Source of the DNA: a virus
Reading direction: 5' to 3' (one strand)
Length of the DNA: 35,851 bases
Virus record (IMG/VR): IMGVR_UViG_3300046005_001359
Span: 1-35,851 of that record
The stretch's first letter is position 1. Each line of letters starts with the position of its first letter. The translations under genes and the position numbers were made by a program. The notes beneath the pieces are model-generated. The model was not told where the DNA came from. It ran no database searches and was given only the letters and a program-made list of their open reading frames with translations. This document shows, piece after piece, positions 22,546 to 31,349 of the stretch.

Positions 22546-24474
22546 ATGAGCGCAGAAGTCACACTAGGATGGAACAACGCACGGCTCGCCGCTGGTGCAA
22601 GGCAGGCCAGCGCAATCGTGGATTCAACCACGTCAAAGATGCGTTCGGCATTTGCCAGCATCGCTGCCGCTGGCGTCGGATTTATAGGCGTTCGTGAGAT
22701 CGTTGACGCCACGGTTAAATACGACTCACTGCGTCTCGGCATGGTAAGCCTGACCGGCAGCGTTGAGGACGCAACGGATCGCATGAGCGAACTACGCACG
22801 CTCGCAAAAGACCCCGGCCTTGGATTCGCTCAAGTCGTTGAAACGGACATCCGCCTGCGTTCTGCGGGCATCTCCGCCAGCGTGTCAGAACGTGCTATTC
22901 GCGAGTTCGGAAACGCTCTGGCAGTCGTCGGCAAAGGCAAAGAAGAACTCGACGGCGTGGCGCTGGCATTGTCCCAGATTGCCAGTAAGGGCAAAGTCAG
23001 CGCCGAGGAAATCAATCAGATCGCCGAGCGCGTGCCTCAAATCCGAACAGTGATGAAGGATGTCTTCGGCACTGCCGACACTGAGAAGTTGCAAAAGATG
23101 GGCATCACATCGGAAGAGTTTATCGACCGCGTAGTGAAGGGCTTGGAAAAGATTCCTCGCGCCATTGTGGGCTTGCAAGGCAAGTGGGACAATCTCACAG
23201 ACTCAATGACATCGCGTCTTGCCGATATTGGAACCGGCATTGCTCAAGGCATTTTAGGGCCAATGGAGAACACCACTGAAGCTCTCGAAAACTCAAGGAT
23301 TCAGGCTGAAGGATTCGGCCAATCAGTCGGCAGTTTAATCGGTATTATTTTTGATCTTGGGAAAGGTTTTGGATTTGTCGTTGATGAAGTGGGGCAATTC
23401 GCCGCCGTTGCCGCCAACCTCGCTGGCGACACTCTGGCAAAATACATTCCAGCTCTCTCCGACTGGAAACAAGAGGTCAAAGAGTTCAACGAGGCCGAAT
23501 TACTCTCTGCTGACGCCGTTCGCAAACTGGCGGAGGAGGAGCGTATTTGCGTCGCCATCCAAAAGGCGCTAGCGGCATCCGAAGACGCTCTAACCAAAGC
23601 GGCAAATGATCGAGCTGAAGCTGAAATTAAAGCGACCCGCGCCATCATCGAGAAAAACAAAGCCGCCGAAGATAGCTTCAGGACGCAGCTTCAAAAGACT
23701 GAAGATTCACGTCTAACGGATGAAGAAAAGCTCGAAAAAGTGAAGGCCAAAATTCTTCAAATCGACCGCGAATTGAACGCAGTCAGCGGGCAAGTCGGAG
23801 GCACAGAGATTGCTTTCAAGCTAAATGAAGAACGTCTAAAAACAATGGACGAACTTGACAGGCTTTCAAAGTCGATTCAGAAAACCAACGAAGAAAGCAA
23901 TAAAACGGAAGCCGAGAAACAGGCCAAGATGGCGGAGGAAGTCGCTGCAAAAGAGCAAGCCATGCAGCTATTCGCACTTGAGCTAGCCATTGCCGAAGCC
24001 GCTAGCCGTGGGCAGGACGCGAAGGTTGCGAAGCTCGAACGTGAACGTGACATCATCGAACAGACCACCCGGCTGATGAATGAACTCGGCATCGGTTATG
24101 ACGAAGCCGCCAAGATGGCAGAGCGCCTTGTGAACGCCGAGACGAAAGCCGAAGCTCGAAAGAACGGCGGAGACGGCGAACGCTCGAAGATTCGCGGCTA
24201 CTCACAAGACCAAGGTGACGCAGCTGCCGCACGAACACGGGCAGGCGGACGAGTGGACGAAGCGCGGGCAAACGCCACTGCCGCCACCGCTCGCGGATTC
24301 TCGTCTTTTGCCGAGATCGACGCAGCGCAAAAGACCAAGTTCGGCAATGCTTTTGGAAACGCGCCAGCCGAGCAAGCCGCAGTCAAAACAGAGTCGCCAC
24401 TGACTCAAGTTATGGACCGCCTCGACAAGTGGGCGAACTCCACCAGTGAAACCATCGAAAAAGCCTTCCAGTAA
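22546..24474 (+). CDS. Tape measure protein
   Basis: A 642-residue protein. The conserved tape-measure domain lies near residues 141-166 (ALSQIASKGKVSAEEINQIA), preceded by YDSLRLGMVSLTG. The N-terminal ~50 residues are helical with a hydrophobic AAAGVGFIGV; a long Ala/Glu/Lys coiled coil covers roughly 320-560. Such proteins set tail length at about 0.15 nm per residue, which here suggests a tail near 95 nm (inference). TTGACA at 22525 lies 15 nt before the ATG. The stop and next start share one base (TAATG). Confidence 0.9.
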   Translation: MSAEVTLGWNNARLAAGARQASAIVDSTTSKMRSAFASIAAAGVGFIGVREIVDATVKYDSLRLGMVSLTGSVEDATDRMSELRTLAKDPGLGFAQVVETDIRLRSAGISASVSERAIREFGNALAVVGKGKEELDGVALALSQIASKGKVSAEEINQIAERVPQIRTVMKDVFGTADTEKLQKMGITSEEFIDRVVKGLEKIPRAIVGLQGKWDNLTDSMTSRLADIGTGIAQGILGPMENTTEALENSRIQAEGFGQSVGSLIGIIFDLGKGFGFVVDEVGQFAAVAANLAGDTLAKYIPALSDWKQEVKEFNEAELLSADAVRKLAEEERICVAIQKALAASEDALTKAANDRAEAEIKATRAIIEKNKAAEDSFRTQLQKTEDSRLTDEEKLEKVKAKILQIDRELNAVSGQVGGTEIAFKLNEERLKTMDELDRLSKSIQKTNEESNKTEAEKQAKMAEEVAAKEQAMQLFALELAIAEAASRGQDAKVAKLERERDIIEQTTRLMNELGIGYDEAAKMAERLVNAETKAEARKNGGDGERSKIRGYSQDQGDAAAARTRAGGRVDEARANATAATARGFSSFAEIDAAQKTKFGNAFGNAPAEQAAVKTESPLTQVMDRLDKWANSTSETIEKAFQ

Positions 24475-25643: not shown

Positions 25644-26378
25644 ATGGCAATCCCTCGTTATCGACTCCGCAGGACTCGCGGCTTCGCAACCGTCCGAGAT
25701 TTAAAGGACTGGCTGACTTGGCTCGCGCCCAAGATGGAAGCGATGGGAAAGATAGATGTGCGAGGCGCGAAGTCGTCAACCGTGCAGGCGGACGGAACGA
25801 CGCATTATAGGATCGAAGCGGCTTCGCACGTTGGACCGCCCGGCCCTGACGGCTCGCCAGTCCCAGGCCCAGATGGCCCGCCCGGCCCGACAGGTGGCCC
25901 CGGTATCCCTGGCATGTTCTCACCTCCCGGCCCAGAAGGACCAGCGGGACCGCCCGGCCCCGCAGGACCGCCAGGATTGCCCGGCGTTCCCGGCGAACCT
26001 GGGGACGAATCAAAGACGGCCATCGTTGAGAACGATCTTGGAATCTACGGATTCGCTGCCGTGGAATGTGGCGAGGCGCTCTTTCGGGATCATCTCATTT
26101 TCACGCACCAAGGATCTATGATGCGCGTGGCGATGGACGAACGCTGGCTTGTCACGGTATCGGATGTGAAGATTGAAAGCGTGGTGACGAGTGAGCCCGC
26201 GAAGGTTTCCGTCACGTTGGAATCGTCATTGATCCTCATCGAAGTTTCCAGCCCCGTAACCGTCACCGTTACACTCTGCGGCATCCGTCGCGGATTCGAG
26301 TCCGCCGCATGGCCGCGATTTACAGCCGATCAAATGCGCGCTAACAATGCGTTTTACGCGGCAGCACATCGCCCATGA
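25644..26378 (+). CDS. Collagen-like tail fibre protein, copy 1
   Basis: 244 residues in three parts: an N-terminal module ([20 protein letters not shown]), a collagen segment of Gly-X-Y triplets rich in Pro (about 64-121), and a C-terminal beta-rich domain after ESKTAIVE. The triplets are broken by SPVP (71-74) and MFSPP (91-95). Several Pro lie in the Y position ([13 protein letters not shown]), the site hydroxylated in animal collagen. Collagen segments trimerise; in phages they form fibre shafts. The C-terminal ends with GIRRGF...[13 protein letters not shown], shared with copies 2 and 3. No signal peptide. Confidence 0.85.
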
Positions 26379-27082
26379 AAGCAGACCAACAACGGCAATA
26401 CAAATTCCCAAAACCGGGACTCCTTCACGCCGAAGCTCTGGCGCGCATGATTCAATGGGTAGGCGGCGTGCTCGGCTACGATACGACCTACTACAACGCG
26501 AAGCAGGACGATACCATTTACGACGGCAGCAAGCTCGTGGATTTCCGCAACCTCGGAGCCCCCGGCCCTCCCGGCACAGATCAACCCGGCCCGCCCGGCC
26601 CTCCCGGCGACCCAGGTCCGTATGGCCCCGACGGCCCCGACAATCTCATCCCCGGCCCTCCCGGCCCCACGGGGCCAACAGGAGGCCCAGGCCCGCCCGG
26701 CCCCGGCGGAGCACCCGGCGAGCCCGGCGATAAATTCGCCATCGTGGAAGCTGGCGGGATGTTCGTCGGCATGGCCGCGCTCGAAGCGCCGCGCCCTTAT
26801 TTCATCGAACGTCTCACCTTCAAAGCCAATGAGAGTGCCGTCACTATCCCGGCCCTTTTTCTCGGCACGATTGAGCTTTCATCCCTGCGCGTCATGGCTT
26901 GCAACGTGCCCGCCGTGGGCGTGAGAATTGACGGCATTTCCGTCGCCATCTCCAGCAAGCATTCGGGAGGCATCGTGACCGTGATTGGCATCCGCCGTGG
27001 ATTCAACGGGTGGCATTTCAAGGACTACACCATTGACCAAAAGCGGAACAATGATCAGTTCTACAACTCCGCGCACGCATGA
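26375..27082 (+). CDS. Collagen-like tail fibre protein, copy 2
   Basis: A 235-residue paralogue of the preceding gene, overlapping it by four nucleotides. N-terminal module [20 protein letters not shown], collagen segment about 61-119 with breaks at TDQP (68-71) and PDNLIP, then [12 protein letters not shown] and a C-terminal domain ending [20 protein letters not shown]. The N-terminal module is more diverged than the collagen and C-terminal parts. It likely forms homo- or heterotrimers with copies 1 and 3. Confidence 0.85.
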
Positions 27083-27819
27083 AGACGGCCTATAAACTCA
27101 AACGCAAAGGCGGATTCGCCTACGTTTCGGACGCCCGCGAGTCGATGGCTTGGATCATCAAGAACATGCCGAACGGCGCATCATTCGAGCCGATGAAGTC
27201 TGAGAGTGTAGGGTTCGTGCGTGTGGACTTGCCCGCAGGCACTACCGGCCCCGCAGGCGACAATGCAGTTGATCCCGGCCCTCCCGGCGACCCAGGTCCC
27301 GCAGGGCCTCCCGGCCCTCCTGGACCCCTTGGAGCATCCGTTCCCGGTGATCCCGGCCCGCCCGGCCCATTGGTTCCCGGCCCTGCGGGTGTTCCCGGCG
27401 AACCGGGCGCAAAGCTAGCCATCGTTGAAAGCGGGAGCGAAGTCGTGGGCTTGCATGTCGTCGAACAGCCGGAGATGCGATTCATGGATTGCCTTGATTG
27501 GCGTATTCGCAAAGGCGAGCGATTCGCGTTCGTCCGCATTCCTGAGAGGTTCATGGCCGCCGTGAGGCCATCCATCATCGTGACCGGGCTAACCTGCGAA
27601 ACGGCGGGAGAACTCGGCGCATCGGTCTTCAGTGACTTCATCCAGATCGAGGCCAATCGGTCATGGTTCAGCCGGAAGGAAAAGCGAGGAACAGTGACCA
27701 TTTCCGCACTTGCCAAGCATTGCCATCGCGGCAGATTCCCGCAGTTCACGGAAGATCAAAAGCGCCGCAATGACGAGTTTTGGGGCCGTGCTCTAACACC
27801 CAAGCTCACCACATTATGA
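27079..27819 (+). CDS. Collagen-like tail fibre protein, copy 3
   Basis: A 246-residue paralogue, overlapping copy 2 and the following oxygenase by four nucleotides each. N-terminal [20 protein letters not shown] matches copy 1 ([18 protein letters not shown]). The collagen segment is about 57-111, with breaks NAVD, ASVP and PLVP, ending [12 protein letters not shown]. The C-terminal domain ends [19 protein letters not shown], the DQ-x-R-x-N-x-x-F signature of the set. Being the last of the three and coupled to the hydroxylase, it fixes the operon order fibre, fibre, fibre, enzyme. Confidence 0.85.
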
Positions 27820-28385
27820 CGCGCAATCAATGGTATCACTCGCCCGGCGTATTGACGCCGAAGGAATGCGTAATGCTTTTGAAGTATTGCAACAAACGGT
27901 ATCCGTCACAACCCGCAGTTGTCGGGCACGGTGGACAGACTCGGACTGACAATCAACTCAGGCGCTCCACGGTGCGATGGCTTGATTTTGCCGACCTTGA
28001 TTTGCTCTGGTTTTTCCGCCGCATTGAACGCGAGACGCTGAAGGCAAACGCTACTTTTGGACTCGACATCCAGCACGCATCTACTGAGTGGCAGTTGACC
28101 GAATACGACAGCGCAGATCGTGGGCTTTACGACTGGCATCAAGATTCGTCAGAGCTTTGTAAAGACCCGTTCGAGCGGAAGCTAACCCTCGTCATGCAGC
28201 TCACGCCACCCGACAAATACGAAGGCGGTCAATTCGAGATCAAAGGCGATCAGCTACCAGCGAACTACTTTCGTAACGCAGGCGACCTGCTCTTTTTCCG
28301 GTCAAACCTCTGGCACCGGGCAACCGAAGTCACCCAAGGGAAGCGGCACTCCCTCGTTTCATGGGTCAAAGGGCCGCGCCGTTGA
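27816..28385 (+). CDS. 2OG-Fe(II) oxygenase, prolyl-4-hydroxylase-like
   Basis: 189 residues from the ATG at 27816, which overlaps the collagen gene stop; an in-frame TTG at 27780 lies inside that gene. The double-stranded beta-helix core is complete: H108-x-D110 (DWHQDSS), distal H167 (NLWHRATEV) and R177 (GKRHSLVSW) for 2-oxoglutarate, with LTLVMQL and YEGGQFEI between. It resembles the P4H/PiuC branch, which uses Fe(II), O2 and 2-oxoglutarate to hydroxylate substrates, often prolines. Coupling to three Gly-X-Pro-rich genes suggests their prolines are the substrate; that link is inference, and other 2OG oxygenases in phages act on other targets. Confidence 0.88.
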   Translation: MTRNQWYHSPGVLTPKECVMLLKYCNKRYPSQPAVVGHGGQTRTDNQLRRSTVRWLDFADLDLLWFFRRIERETLKANATFGLDIQHASTEWQLTEYDSADRGLYDWHQDSSELCKDPFERKLTLVMQLTPPDKYEGGQFEIKGDQLPANYFRNAGDLLFFRSNLWHRATEVTQGKRHSLVSWVKGPRR

Positions 28386-28403: not shown

Positions 28404-29090
28404 ATGGACATCATCTTTGACCTCGCCACGAATGAGCTAACGACCGACGCGGAAGAGCTAGGGCTGAAGTGGCGGAGTCGTGAGCCTGCCCGTTTGAAGT
28501 TCGAGCGCGCCGGAGTCGCTGAATTGCTCCCGACTGGCTACGGCCTCGCTCTCTACATCGTGAAGGATGGCGAACTATTGGCAGAGGTGACTAGCTGGGA
28601 AACGCCCGGCAGCACCGCAGGCTATTACGAGGGAGAACTGATTCTCCACACGGCAGAGCTTACGGCGGCCTTTGCAACCGCTACCGTCCTGCGCATCACG
28701 ACGGCTCTGGAGATTCACTGGTGGGCATCCGGCGAGGCTTCAACGCCTGCCATCTCGGACACCGATACAATCTGCCACATTGACCGCCCCGCCATTGAGC
28801 CGGAACCGGGCAGCGTGGAAGTGCTCACCGGCGGCGAGGAATGGCTCGAAGAACGCGCTCCACGTTGGTATCCGGCAATCACGGGACTCACCGGCGGCGG
28901 CTCGACGAAACTTGACGGACTCATCACCGCTGGCAAATCCTCGCTCCTAACTTCCATCTACGTCTCGTCAGAACTTCAAGACTGGATTCTGTTCTCAGGC
29001 ACCAACGCGGAGGATTCAGCCAATGGCATCGTTCGCCCTGACGATTACGACGCCAGCACGAACGCCCAAGTCTGGAAGCGCGTCCGCTAA
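28404..29090 (+). CDS. Tail protein, baseplate-like, family unclear
   Basis: A 228-residue protein after the oxygenase. Beta-rich N-terminal half (LKWRSREPARLKFERAGV, GYGLALYIVKDGELLAEV), a Pro/Glu linker, and a Gly/Ser/Thr C-terminal half with SELQDWILFSGTNAED and VWKRVR at the end. It resembles upper-baseplate or fibre-adaptor proteins by composition only. TTGACA at 28382 lies 16 nt before the start and overlaps the oxygenase stop. Confidence 0.45.
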   Translation: MDIIFDLATNELTTDAEELGLKWRSREPARLKFERAGVAELLPTGYGLALYIVKDGELLAEVTSWETPGSTAGYYEGELILHTAELTAAFATATVLRITTALEIHWWASGEASTPAISDTDTICHIDRPAIEPEPGSVEVLTGGEEWLEERAPRWYPAITGLTGGGSTKLDGLITAGKSSLLTSIYVSSELQDWILFSGTNAEDSANGIVRPDDYDASTNAQVWKRVR

Positions 29091-29111: not shown

Positions 29112-30797
29112 ATGAAAACCGCCATCCTACTCATCACCGCAGCCGCCTTTGTGCTCCTGCCCGTGCTCGCCTTTGGGCAGACTAAAACCGTGCTCAAGAA
29201 CGTCAGTGGAAACACGATCACGGAGAGCTTGACCATCGGCAGCGGCAAGACGCTCACAATTGCCAGTGGGGCAACGATTGACGCCACTGGCGCTACAGTG
29301 ACGGGATTTACCGCCTCCGCTGCGTGGGATTCCATCACTGGCAAACCCGCGAACATTACCGCCATTGCCGGACTAACCAGTGCCACAGATACCATGCCCT
29401 ATTTCACCGGAAGCGGGACGGCGGCAATTACGACACTCACAAGCACAGCTCGAACTTTGCTGGACGATACGTCGGCATCCGCTATGCGCACGACTTTAGG
29501 GCTAGGCGATTACGCTCCTTCTGGGATTAACTATGGCATTCAGTTTATCTTGGACGCCTCCGCAGGCTCAATTACCAGCCAAGGTGACATCGAGGCTAAT
29601 TCGTTTTCAGGAATCGGCACAGCATTAACCGCGCTGAACGGCTCGAACATCTCCAGCGGCACCGTCGCCGACGCCCGACTCTCCGCCAACGTCTCGCTGC
29701 TCGGCCAAACCATCTCCCTCGCCACGGAAGTCACTGGAAACCTGCCCGTCGCAAACCTCAACTCCGGCACCTCTGCCAGCGCCTCGACGTTCTGGCGCGG
29801 TGACGGGACGTGGGCAACTCCTGCGGGTGGCAGTCCCGGTGGAAGCTCTGGACAGGTGCAATACAACAACGCATCCAGCTTTGGTGGCGTCACTGGACTA
29901 ACTTTGACCACGGGCACACTCAGTGCGGCATCTATCGCGGGCGGCACCGTAACCGCCTCCGCTCCGATGCTGGCCATGAGCCAGACTTGGAACGGCGCGG
30001 CAGTAGCGTTCGAGGGTATGACTATCGACATCACGGACACATCTTCTCCAGCTTACTCTACAACTTGGGCCAATGTTCCCAAGTCGCTCAATGTGAGAAC
30101 AGGCGGAGTCACTAAGTTTGCGGTCATCCCCAAAGGCTCAGAGTCTAGCGCCATGATCCGACTCGGCGGCACAGATGGTGCGCACGCATTGCTAAAAGAC
30201 AGCACGACGGGAGCTTTCATTTTTAGGCGGTCTGACGGCATTGATTGTGCGGTAGCTGGCTGGCTCATTACCCAGCTTGGCTTGGTTGTCGCATCCGGCG
30301 CGGCTGGAGGTATTTATCCTGGAGTTATTGGTTTTAACAGCACCACTAATAACATGTCTGGAGGCAACGCCGATGCGGATACCTACTTTACGAGACAGGC
30401 CGTCAACGTGATGCAGTTCGACCGGGACGTTGATGCTAATGCCGATGACTACACGCTTAAATCGCCGGACGGCATCACAGGAACAGACCGCAGCGGCGGA
30501 GATTTAACGCTGGCAAGCGGCGACAGCACCGGGGCAGGCACGAGTGCCGTGATCATCTCAACACCGGCTGCGGGATCAACTGGCACAACAACGCGAGCAG
30601 CCGCAGAGCGCGTGCGCATCTCATCGGCTGGCATTCAGATCAACAGCGGCCCCATTTGGTCAAGTGGCACCGGCAGTCCTGAAGGAGCCGTGACCGCAGG
30701 CGTCGGCAGCATCTACACCCGCACGGACGGCGGAGCATCCACTACCCTTTACGTCAAAGAATCTGGCACAGGAAATACCGGATGGATTGCCAAGTGA
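29112..30797 (+). CDS. Large tail fibre protein with signal peptide
   Basis: A 561-residue protein. Residues 1-22 ([20 protein letters not shown]) form a Sec signal peptide with a cut near FG|Q. The rest is a fibre: Thr/Ala/Gly-rich beta repeats ([20 protein letters not shown]), typical shaft segments ([20 protein letters not shown]) and a C-terminal end ([20 protein letters not shown], then GNTGWIAK) common in phage fibres. A signal peptide on a fibre is unusual because tails assemble in the cytoplasm. It may form the receptor-binding end beyond the collagen fibres. Confidence 0.82.
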
Positions 30798-30830: not shown

Positions 30831-31349
30831 ATGCCTCCCCTTGACCTTGCCCAGTATGAGGCCCTCTGGGCCATCTCAGAAATCCCGATGGCCATTGTCG
30901 ATCTTGATGATCGCTTTGTTAGATGCAACCGTGCGTTCTGTGGCATTGTTGGCTACGCTCAACACGAACTCAGACTCAGGACATGGAAGCAGATCACACA
31001 TCCCGACGATCTCGAAGGAGACATTGCCAGCGTTGAATCCCTCAAGGCTGATAATGAGTCCGACGGTTACGGGCTTACAAAGCGATACATCACCAAGGAT
31101 GGGCGAATCATTTTCGTCAGGCTTTCAGTCCTTCCCGTGCGTGATGAATCCGGCAACTGCGTTGGATTTTTCGTCTCTGCCCTGCCCATCCTCGCCGAAT
31201 ACGCCACCGGAAAGGCCGTTGAAAAGTTCAGACTTATTGAGTGGATCACAAAAAACAAAAAGGATGCCGCAATCGTCACTCTTGGCGGAGGGCTGTTTTT
31301 AGGGCGTGACACGATCATCGAATTGCTTAAACTGTGGCTGACAAAGTAA
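30831..31349 (+). CDS. PAS-domain protein in the lysis region
   Basis: A 172-residue protein. A single PAS fold fills residues 10-125: EIPMAIVDLDDRFVRCNRAF, GYAQHELRL, the S-box THPDDLEGD (56-64), then YITKDGRIIFVRLSVLPVRD and VGFFVSALPI. A basic linker KNKK (141-144) leads to a hydrophobic C-terminal helix AAIVTLGGGLFLG...LLKLWL (146-170), perhaps membrane-associated. There is no kinase, cyclase or DNA-binding output. It stands directly before a holin-like gene, so it may sense a small ligand, redox state or light and report to the lysis proteins (inference). A +1 frame over the same bases is a shadow. Confidence 0.85.
   Translation: MPPLDLAQYEALWAISEIPMAIVDLDDRFVRCNRAFCGIVGYAQHELRLRTWKQITHPDDLEGDIASVESLKADNESDGYGLTKRYITKDGRIIFVRLSVLPVRDESGNCVGFFVSALPILAEYATGKAVEKFRLIEWITKNKKDAAIVTLGGGLFLGRDTIIELLKLWLTK

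Follow-up and report, generated by a model that had tools for sequence, protein, structure and literature searches.

Hydroxyproline at the Y position stabilizes collagen triple helices. Bacteria and viruses have been said to lack both collagen prolyl hydroxylases and a preference for proline at the Y position (PMC3368898), and prokaryotic collagens are homotrimers according to a review (PMC8968730). Phage fibers with a collagen shaft are described from E. coli O157 prophages, where EPclA/B form trimers with terminal domains; they have a single chain type, no Y-proline preference, and no hydroxylase (PMC3368898). Mimivirus, in the review's account of Luther 2011, encodes a collagen together with a lysyl hydroxylase/glycosyltransferase that hydroxylates it (PMC8968730). 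It thus pairs a viral collagen with its hydroxylating enzyme, as proposed here, but the enzyme as recounted there targets lysine, and the virus is a giant virus of amoebae.

Prolyl 4-hydroxylases (P4Hs) are described from several related settings. PBCV-1 vCPH (PDB 5c5t) is a small, single-domain, virus-encoded P4H with an HxD...H core, although it comes from a eukaryotic algal virus. Pseudomonas putida PPHD (PDB 4iw3, 4j25) is bacterial but was solved with EF-Tu rather than collagen. The P4H of Bacillus anthracis (PDB 3itq, 5hv0), a species with collagen-like proteins, is cellular and is reported to hydroxylate (Pro-Pro-Gly)n peptides (PMC8968730). Phage 2OG-Fe(II) oxygenases are usually described as metabolic helpers (PMC3037559, PMC4164917, PMC9602691), and those of phages, PHROG 61 included, were reported in 2026 to resemble human PHD3 (PMC12774648). 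We found no published link between them and collagen fibers in the literature searched, which covers little of the subscription literature, and we make no claim of priority.

Three collagen-like genes and an oxygenase in a phage tail module

The window, a virus record analyzed over its whole length of 35,851 bases, is siphovirus-like, with genes for a helicase, large terminase, portal, protease, major head protein, and tape measure. Just after the tape measure gene, inside the tail module, lies a run of ATGA-overlapped genes, three paralogous Gly-X-Y genes (25644-27819) and then a 2OG-Fe(II) oxygenase (27816-28385), arranged exactly as a sequence-only reading had described them. This cassette and its surroundings comprise the following features.

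22546..24474, plus strand: tape measure gene (phrog_2335, 2.7e-18), context that places the cassette in the tail module
25644..26378, plus strand: col1, collagen-like chain 1, 244 aa, Gly-X-Y, dN/dS 0.03-0.06
25833..26018, plus strand: col1 Gly-X-Y segment and linker, 62 residues
26375..27082, plus strand: col2, collagen-like chain 2, 235 aa, paralogue of col1 and col3
26555..26737, plus strand: col2 Gly-X-Y segment and linker, 61 residues
26738..27079, plus strand: col2 C-terminal beta-rich domain, common to the three chains, with a K-x-AIV start and an F/Y-T-x-D-Q-x-R-x-N-x-x-F/Y end
27079..27819, plus strand: col3, collagen-like chain 3, 246 aa, paralogue
27238..27417, plus strand: col3 Gly-X-Y segment and linker, 60 residues
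27816..28385, plus strand: prolyl-hydroxylase-like 2OG-Fe(II) oxygenase, 189 aa from ATG (PF13640, 2.4e-13; phrog_61, 1.3e-20; AlphaFold/Foldseek)
28404..29090, plus strand: tail-module gene downstream of the cassette, 228 aa, no family match, context
29112..30797, plus strand: hypervariable tail-fiber gene, likely receptor-binding (tail-fiber PHROGs)

Since 10 of the 33 neighboring gene pairs in the window share a 4-bp overlap, overlap alone is weak evidence, and we rejected it as an argument for a cassette. The whole cassette is also present in four IMG/VR contigs from this species of phage, and codon comparison with them gave dN/dS values of 0.01-0.06 (collagens) and 0.03-0.05 (oxygenase); the cassette genes are real and under strong purifying selection. 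Between these contigs the fiber gene at 29112-30797 is 42-44% identical and its flanking genes 97-99%. The low dN/dS of the collagens, set beside this divergence, therefore identifies them as conserved structural parts and the downstream fiber as the fast-changing one, probably the receptor-binding, hypervariable locus. Beyond it, near an endolysin-like gene, is a PAS-domain protein (30831-31349, 172 aa; PF08447, E=8.5e-14), a sensory domain unusual in that position. A tblastn search of 50,697 phage records returned no match to the collagens, and the terminase found only matches of 22-27%; in GTDB genomes the oxygenase had none, the single match being a chance one in a non-oxygenase.

The three collagens are paralogues with common N- and C-terminal domains. 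In col1, an N part of 63 aa precedes the Gly-X-Y segment and linker, which has two interruptions, and a beta-rich C-terminal domain of 119 aa. Against the Pfam Collagen cutoff (PF01391, 27.2 bits), col1 passes at 30.5 bits; col2 (19.0) and col3 (19.6) fall under it, and their interrupted Gly-X-Y runs are plain in the sequence. We propose that the shared C-terminal domain serves in trimerization or attachment; its AlphaFold model (pLDDT 76.5) weakly resembles phage tail and collagen proteins and has no PDB match at E ≤ 0.001. On our reading, the three genes supply the chains of a tail fiber, or of an appendage at the tail tip, in which a short collagen triple helix would form the shaft, and the fourth would supply an enzyme that modifies this shaft; chains and enzyme are presumably made by coupled translation of one message.

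Family, fold, and active site of the oxygenase

The residues on which the assignment of the enzyme depends lie at the following positions.

28128..28145, plus strand: Y105-D-W-H108-Q-D110, P4H active-site Tyr and HxD iron motif (alignment; rule of PMC4396695)
28176..28178, plus strand: R121, counterpart of Arg161 in algal P4H and Arg322 in PHD2, which binds the substrate-proline backbone (PMC4396695)
28314..28316, plus strand: H167, third iron ligand
28344..28346, plus strand: R177, 2-oxoglutarate-binding basic residue, Lys in animal collagen P4H (Lys511 in C-P4H-II)

With 51.3 bits against PF13640 (cutoff 27; E=2.4e-13), an iron triad, and a distal basic residue, the protein belongs to the 2OG-Fe(II) oxygenase superfamily. 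H108, D110, H167, and R177, already picked out in the sequence-only reading, do not vary across an alignment of 52 phage relatives, and neither does R121. Y105 precedes the His of HxD by three residues, a spacing shared with algal P4H, and is present in at least 90% of the phage relatives; R121 aligns with the conserved active-site-opening Arg of algal P4H. The marks of a P4H are this opening Arg, common to prolyl 3-hydroxylases (P3Hs) too, and a Tyr (Tyr140 in algal P4H, Tyr310 in PHD2) that is Leu in P3Hs (PMC4396695). Y105 and R121 are both present, and we therefore call the enzyme P4H-like. A P3H of the OGFOD1 type was rejected, as Tyr105 stands where P3Hs have Leu. The enzyme is also not an animal-type C-P4H alpha subunit, because it is a single 189-aa domain, without the dimerization and peptide-binding domains, and has Arg177 in place of Lys at the 2OG site.

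The AlphaFold model (pLDDT 93, pTM 0.89) has the double-stranded beta-helix fold of P4Hs, which are its top Foldseek matches. Among PDB entries it matches PPHD of P. putida best (E=1.2e-11, TM 0.77/0.73, 20% identity), next the collagen prolyl hydroxylase of PBCV-1 (E=1.2e-9, TM 0.72/0.75, about 18% identity), and after these algal P4H and PHD2. A profile built from 63 phage relatives and searched against solved structures matched chlorovirus P4H (5e-14), algal P4H (7e-12, full length), the more weakly matching B. anthracis P4H (2.5e-10), and PHD2 (5e-8). PKHD/PiuC gave the lowest profile E-value (1.3e-17), over residues 92-186 only, and a weaker fold match (TM 0.50-0.65). Sequence and predicted structure support an enzyme built like the protein prolyl hydroxylases, and P4H-like among them.

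These comparisons bear on a nucleic-acid or small-molecule oxygenase, such as an AlkB-like repair enzyme or a 2-oxoglutarate drain for nitrogen signaling. Roles of this kind have been proposed in the literature for cyanophage 2OG oxygenases, and PhyH matches the protein weakly in Pfam (E=4.6e-6). No nucleic-acid oxygenase is found among the 50 best Foldseek matches, however, and the only enzyme of either kind among these or the sequence-profile matches is one EctD (E=4e-4); the gene, moreover, sits in the tail module. This explanation is disfavored and very improbable. The sequence-only reading had left the choice between such enzymes and the prolyl hydroxylases to structure and phylogeny, and fold and sequence come down on the side of the latter.

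Linkage to collagens and the candidate target residue

The pairing of a collagen-like fiber with a 2OG oxygenase, which the sequence-only reading took to be new for a siphovirus, is not unique to this phage. It recurs in other uncultured phages, and its linkage in related phages is borne out by two further lineages that carry the cassette. In the second lineage (G001/L113; IMGVR 3300043103_000226 and 3300027973_000139/3300010885_033719), an oxygenase 79-81% identical to that of the window follows three orthologous collagens; in the third (L124/L125; IMGVR 3300010885_036151/3300027736_000008), an oxygenase of 53% identity accompanies two paralogous collagens. In G001 (IMGVR_UViG_3300043103_000226) a stretch of the oxygenase, about codons 45-84, is repeated at the two contig ends, so that the contig looks like a closed circular assembly; its record has no completeness value. 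In the two-chain lineage an extra mini-collagen gene of 130 aa (L124:8132-8524) lies between the oxygenase and the fiber gene. Every collagen homologue found by a profile search with the C-terminal domain sits on a cassette contig, two of which end inside the oxygenase. At greater distance, the oxygenase of phage L353 is 41% identical and lies 80 bp downstream of a GPP-rich collagen gene, and in L324 and L325 GPP collagens are paired with another oxygenase subfamily.

The conserved run also bears on whether the enzyme modifies a host protein, such as EF-Tu or another translation protein, or aids host takeover, with the collagens adjacent by accident. The best fold match, PPHD, was bound to EF-Tu, and the 2OG oxygenases of phages usually go under the heading of auxiliary metabolic genes; yet the run with collagens has been kept in three lineages while the collagen C-terminal domains diverged to about 40% identity, and we regard this explanation as improbable. 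The PHROG 61 oxygenases of cyanophages and pelagiphages belong to the same family, and some lie in tail or fiber regions, but they are 24-41% identical to the window's enzyme and carry the auxiliary metabolic label; we found no fiber role proposed for them in the literature searched.

For a wider comparison, 122 non-redundant phage oxygenases were set against 69 T4-like neck-gene loci. A collagen gene lies within 2 kb upstream at 32 of the 122 oxygenase loci and at 3 of the 69 controls (p=8e-5), a difference to be read with the bias that the second half of the oxygenase set was fetched with a family in which several oxygenases were already known to lie near collagens. Of the same-strand genes that lie upstream of the 122 oxygenases at a distance of up to 2 kb, 33 of 320 are collagens; the figures are 3 of 188 for genes farther upstream and 6 of 578 for downstream genes. 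Among the first 80 relatives, the first half of the set, collagens were not enriched near oxygenases overall, and the linkage therefore belongs to particular clades; collagen-linked oxygenases are scattered on the tree. A two-by-two test of oxygenase against collagen inside the T4-like neck-gene loci was not significant, with too few cases. Many relatives have non-collagen fibers or other oxygenases as neighbors, and for most GPP-type phage collagens there is no oxygenase of this kind in the vicinity. At one phage locus (L028:5533-10474), three radical-SAM-like genes (CxxxCxxC) close to one another precede a 2OG oxygenase and the neck genes by a short distance, possibly as a protein-modification cluster.

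Proline occupies about half of the Y positions in the window's repeats (0.47-0.56 per chain). The Y-proline fraction is 0.34-0.71 in six independent oxygenase-linked collagen sets and has a median of 0.25 among 28 GPP-type phage collagens that lack such a linkage (p=0.0005); the richness of the linked sets fits a Y-proline hydroxylase. Selection for Y-proline over X-proline was not detected between G001 and L113, where 51 of 61 and 50 of 60, respectively, are conserved. Lysyl hydroxylation as a shared function was rejected for the window's lineage: outside the end linker the window's repeats are free of Lys, and in L353 and L324 it is missing from the Y positions.

Elsewhere in the family the picture is different. 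A large related clade around L018 has adjacent collagens with Pro at X, Thr or Lys at Y, and Y-proline near zero, so the enzyme there must act on something else, and Y-proline 4-hydroxylation cannot be assumed family-wide. GQK/GPT collagens lie within 2 kb upstream of a 2OG oxygenase at L016, L213, L214, L217, L231, L241, L268, and L281, with Lys at a fraction of 0.21-0.31 of Y positions and Pro at X only; this clade could include lysyl or X-prolyl hydroxylases. At L051, L071, L074, L084, L070, L078, and L091 the oxygenase directly follows fiber-like genes, several of them poly-Gly-tipped, without collagen, which suggests a wider fiber-modification role. Relatives directly downstream of such non-collagen or poly-Gly fibers, and of GPT/GQK collagens without Y-proline, would suit a tail-module hydroxylase that acts on X-proline, Asp/Asn, or terminal or neighboring fiber domains instead of these Y-prolines. 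In the window's own clade, however, the collagens are the only constant neighbor, Y-proline is unusually high for phages, and the active site has the P4H Tyr and Arg; for this enzyme we think a different target unlikely.

A self-contained fiber with its own prolyl hydroxylase is thus the explanation we favor, with fair though not high confidence. The fold, residues, and linkage partly support the earlier proposal of a collagen-modification system encoded by the phage; as a description of the whole family, hydroxylation of Y-prolines fails on the L018-clade collagens. For the window we infer that the oxygenase hydroxylates prolines of the unfolded collagen chains, most likely Y-proline in X-Pro-Gly. 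The reaction would take place in the aerobic cytoplasm of the host and use O2, Fe(II) from host iron, and host 2-oxoglutarate, and the hydroxyprolines would then raise the stability of a shaft that is short, at about 60 residues.

Three chains of matched length

The sequence-only reading had passed over the matched lengths of the three chains. In a phylogeny of the C-terminal domains, chains 1, 2, and 3 of one three-chain lineage each group with their own counterpart in the other (bootstrap 65, 96, and 92), and the duplication therefore appears older than the split of these lineages. Within each genome, however, the collagen segment with its linker is of nearly the same length from chain to chain: 62/61/60 residues for the window, 157/156/149 for G001, and 146/146 for L124. 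Separately inherited genes have thus changed length together, as expected if the chains share one triple helix. In the window, the interruptions of the three chains fall at roughly corresponding places. The second (P 0.004-0.05) and third (0.02-0.07) lineages show partial complementarity of charge blocks in an N-anchored register; these values come from a test made after the pattern had been noticed, in two lineages, and dependent on N-end anchoring in one of them, and are supportive only. Charge complementarity is absent in the window, where the repeats are almost without basic residues.

Three independent homotrimeric fibers of coincidentally equal length would also be compatible with a hydroxylase, and we put this alternative a little short of an even chance. 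It agrees with the homotrimeric state of characterized prokaryotic collagens (PMC8968730) and with the one-chain trimer of the E. coli O157 prophage collagen (PMC3368898), but the parallel length shifts of the separately inherited orthologues, the rough alignment of interruptions, and the complementary charges speak against it. The matched lengths of separately inherited chains instead point to a heterotrimeric phage collagen, a reading new here. We infer that the chains trimerize probably as an A-B-C heterotrimer, probably nucleated by the shared C-terminal domain; the two-chain lineage would then need an A2B assembly. Animal C1q has three adjacent paralogous collagen chains that are likewise matched. 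We use it as a works-like analogy only, for adjacent genes and three matched chains, and claim no homology; unlike C1q, the phage C-terminal domain has no support for a C1q/TNF-like fold among its PDB matches.

The virus probably makes a hydroxylated collagen and perhaps a three-chain one. We know of no bacteriophage for which either has been shown. That this is the first with a dedicated, hydroxyproline-modified A-B-C heterotrimeric collagen and a phage P4H in the same gene run is a tentative proposal, which we hold to be possible rather than probable. The cassette genes could break two published statements, that bacteria and viruses have no collagen prolyl hydroxylase or Y-proline preference (PMC3368898) and that prokaryotic collagens are homotrimers (PMC8968730), and a compact bacterial system for hydroxylated, chain-specific collagen would serve recombinant collagen production. 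They also offer a testable function for the very common phage 2OG-Fe(II) oxygenases, usually explained as metabolic helpers: a large share of those labeled auxiliary metabolic genes may be fiber hydroxylases.
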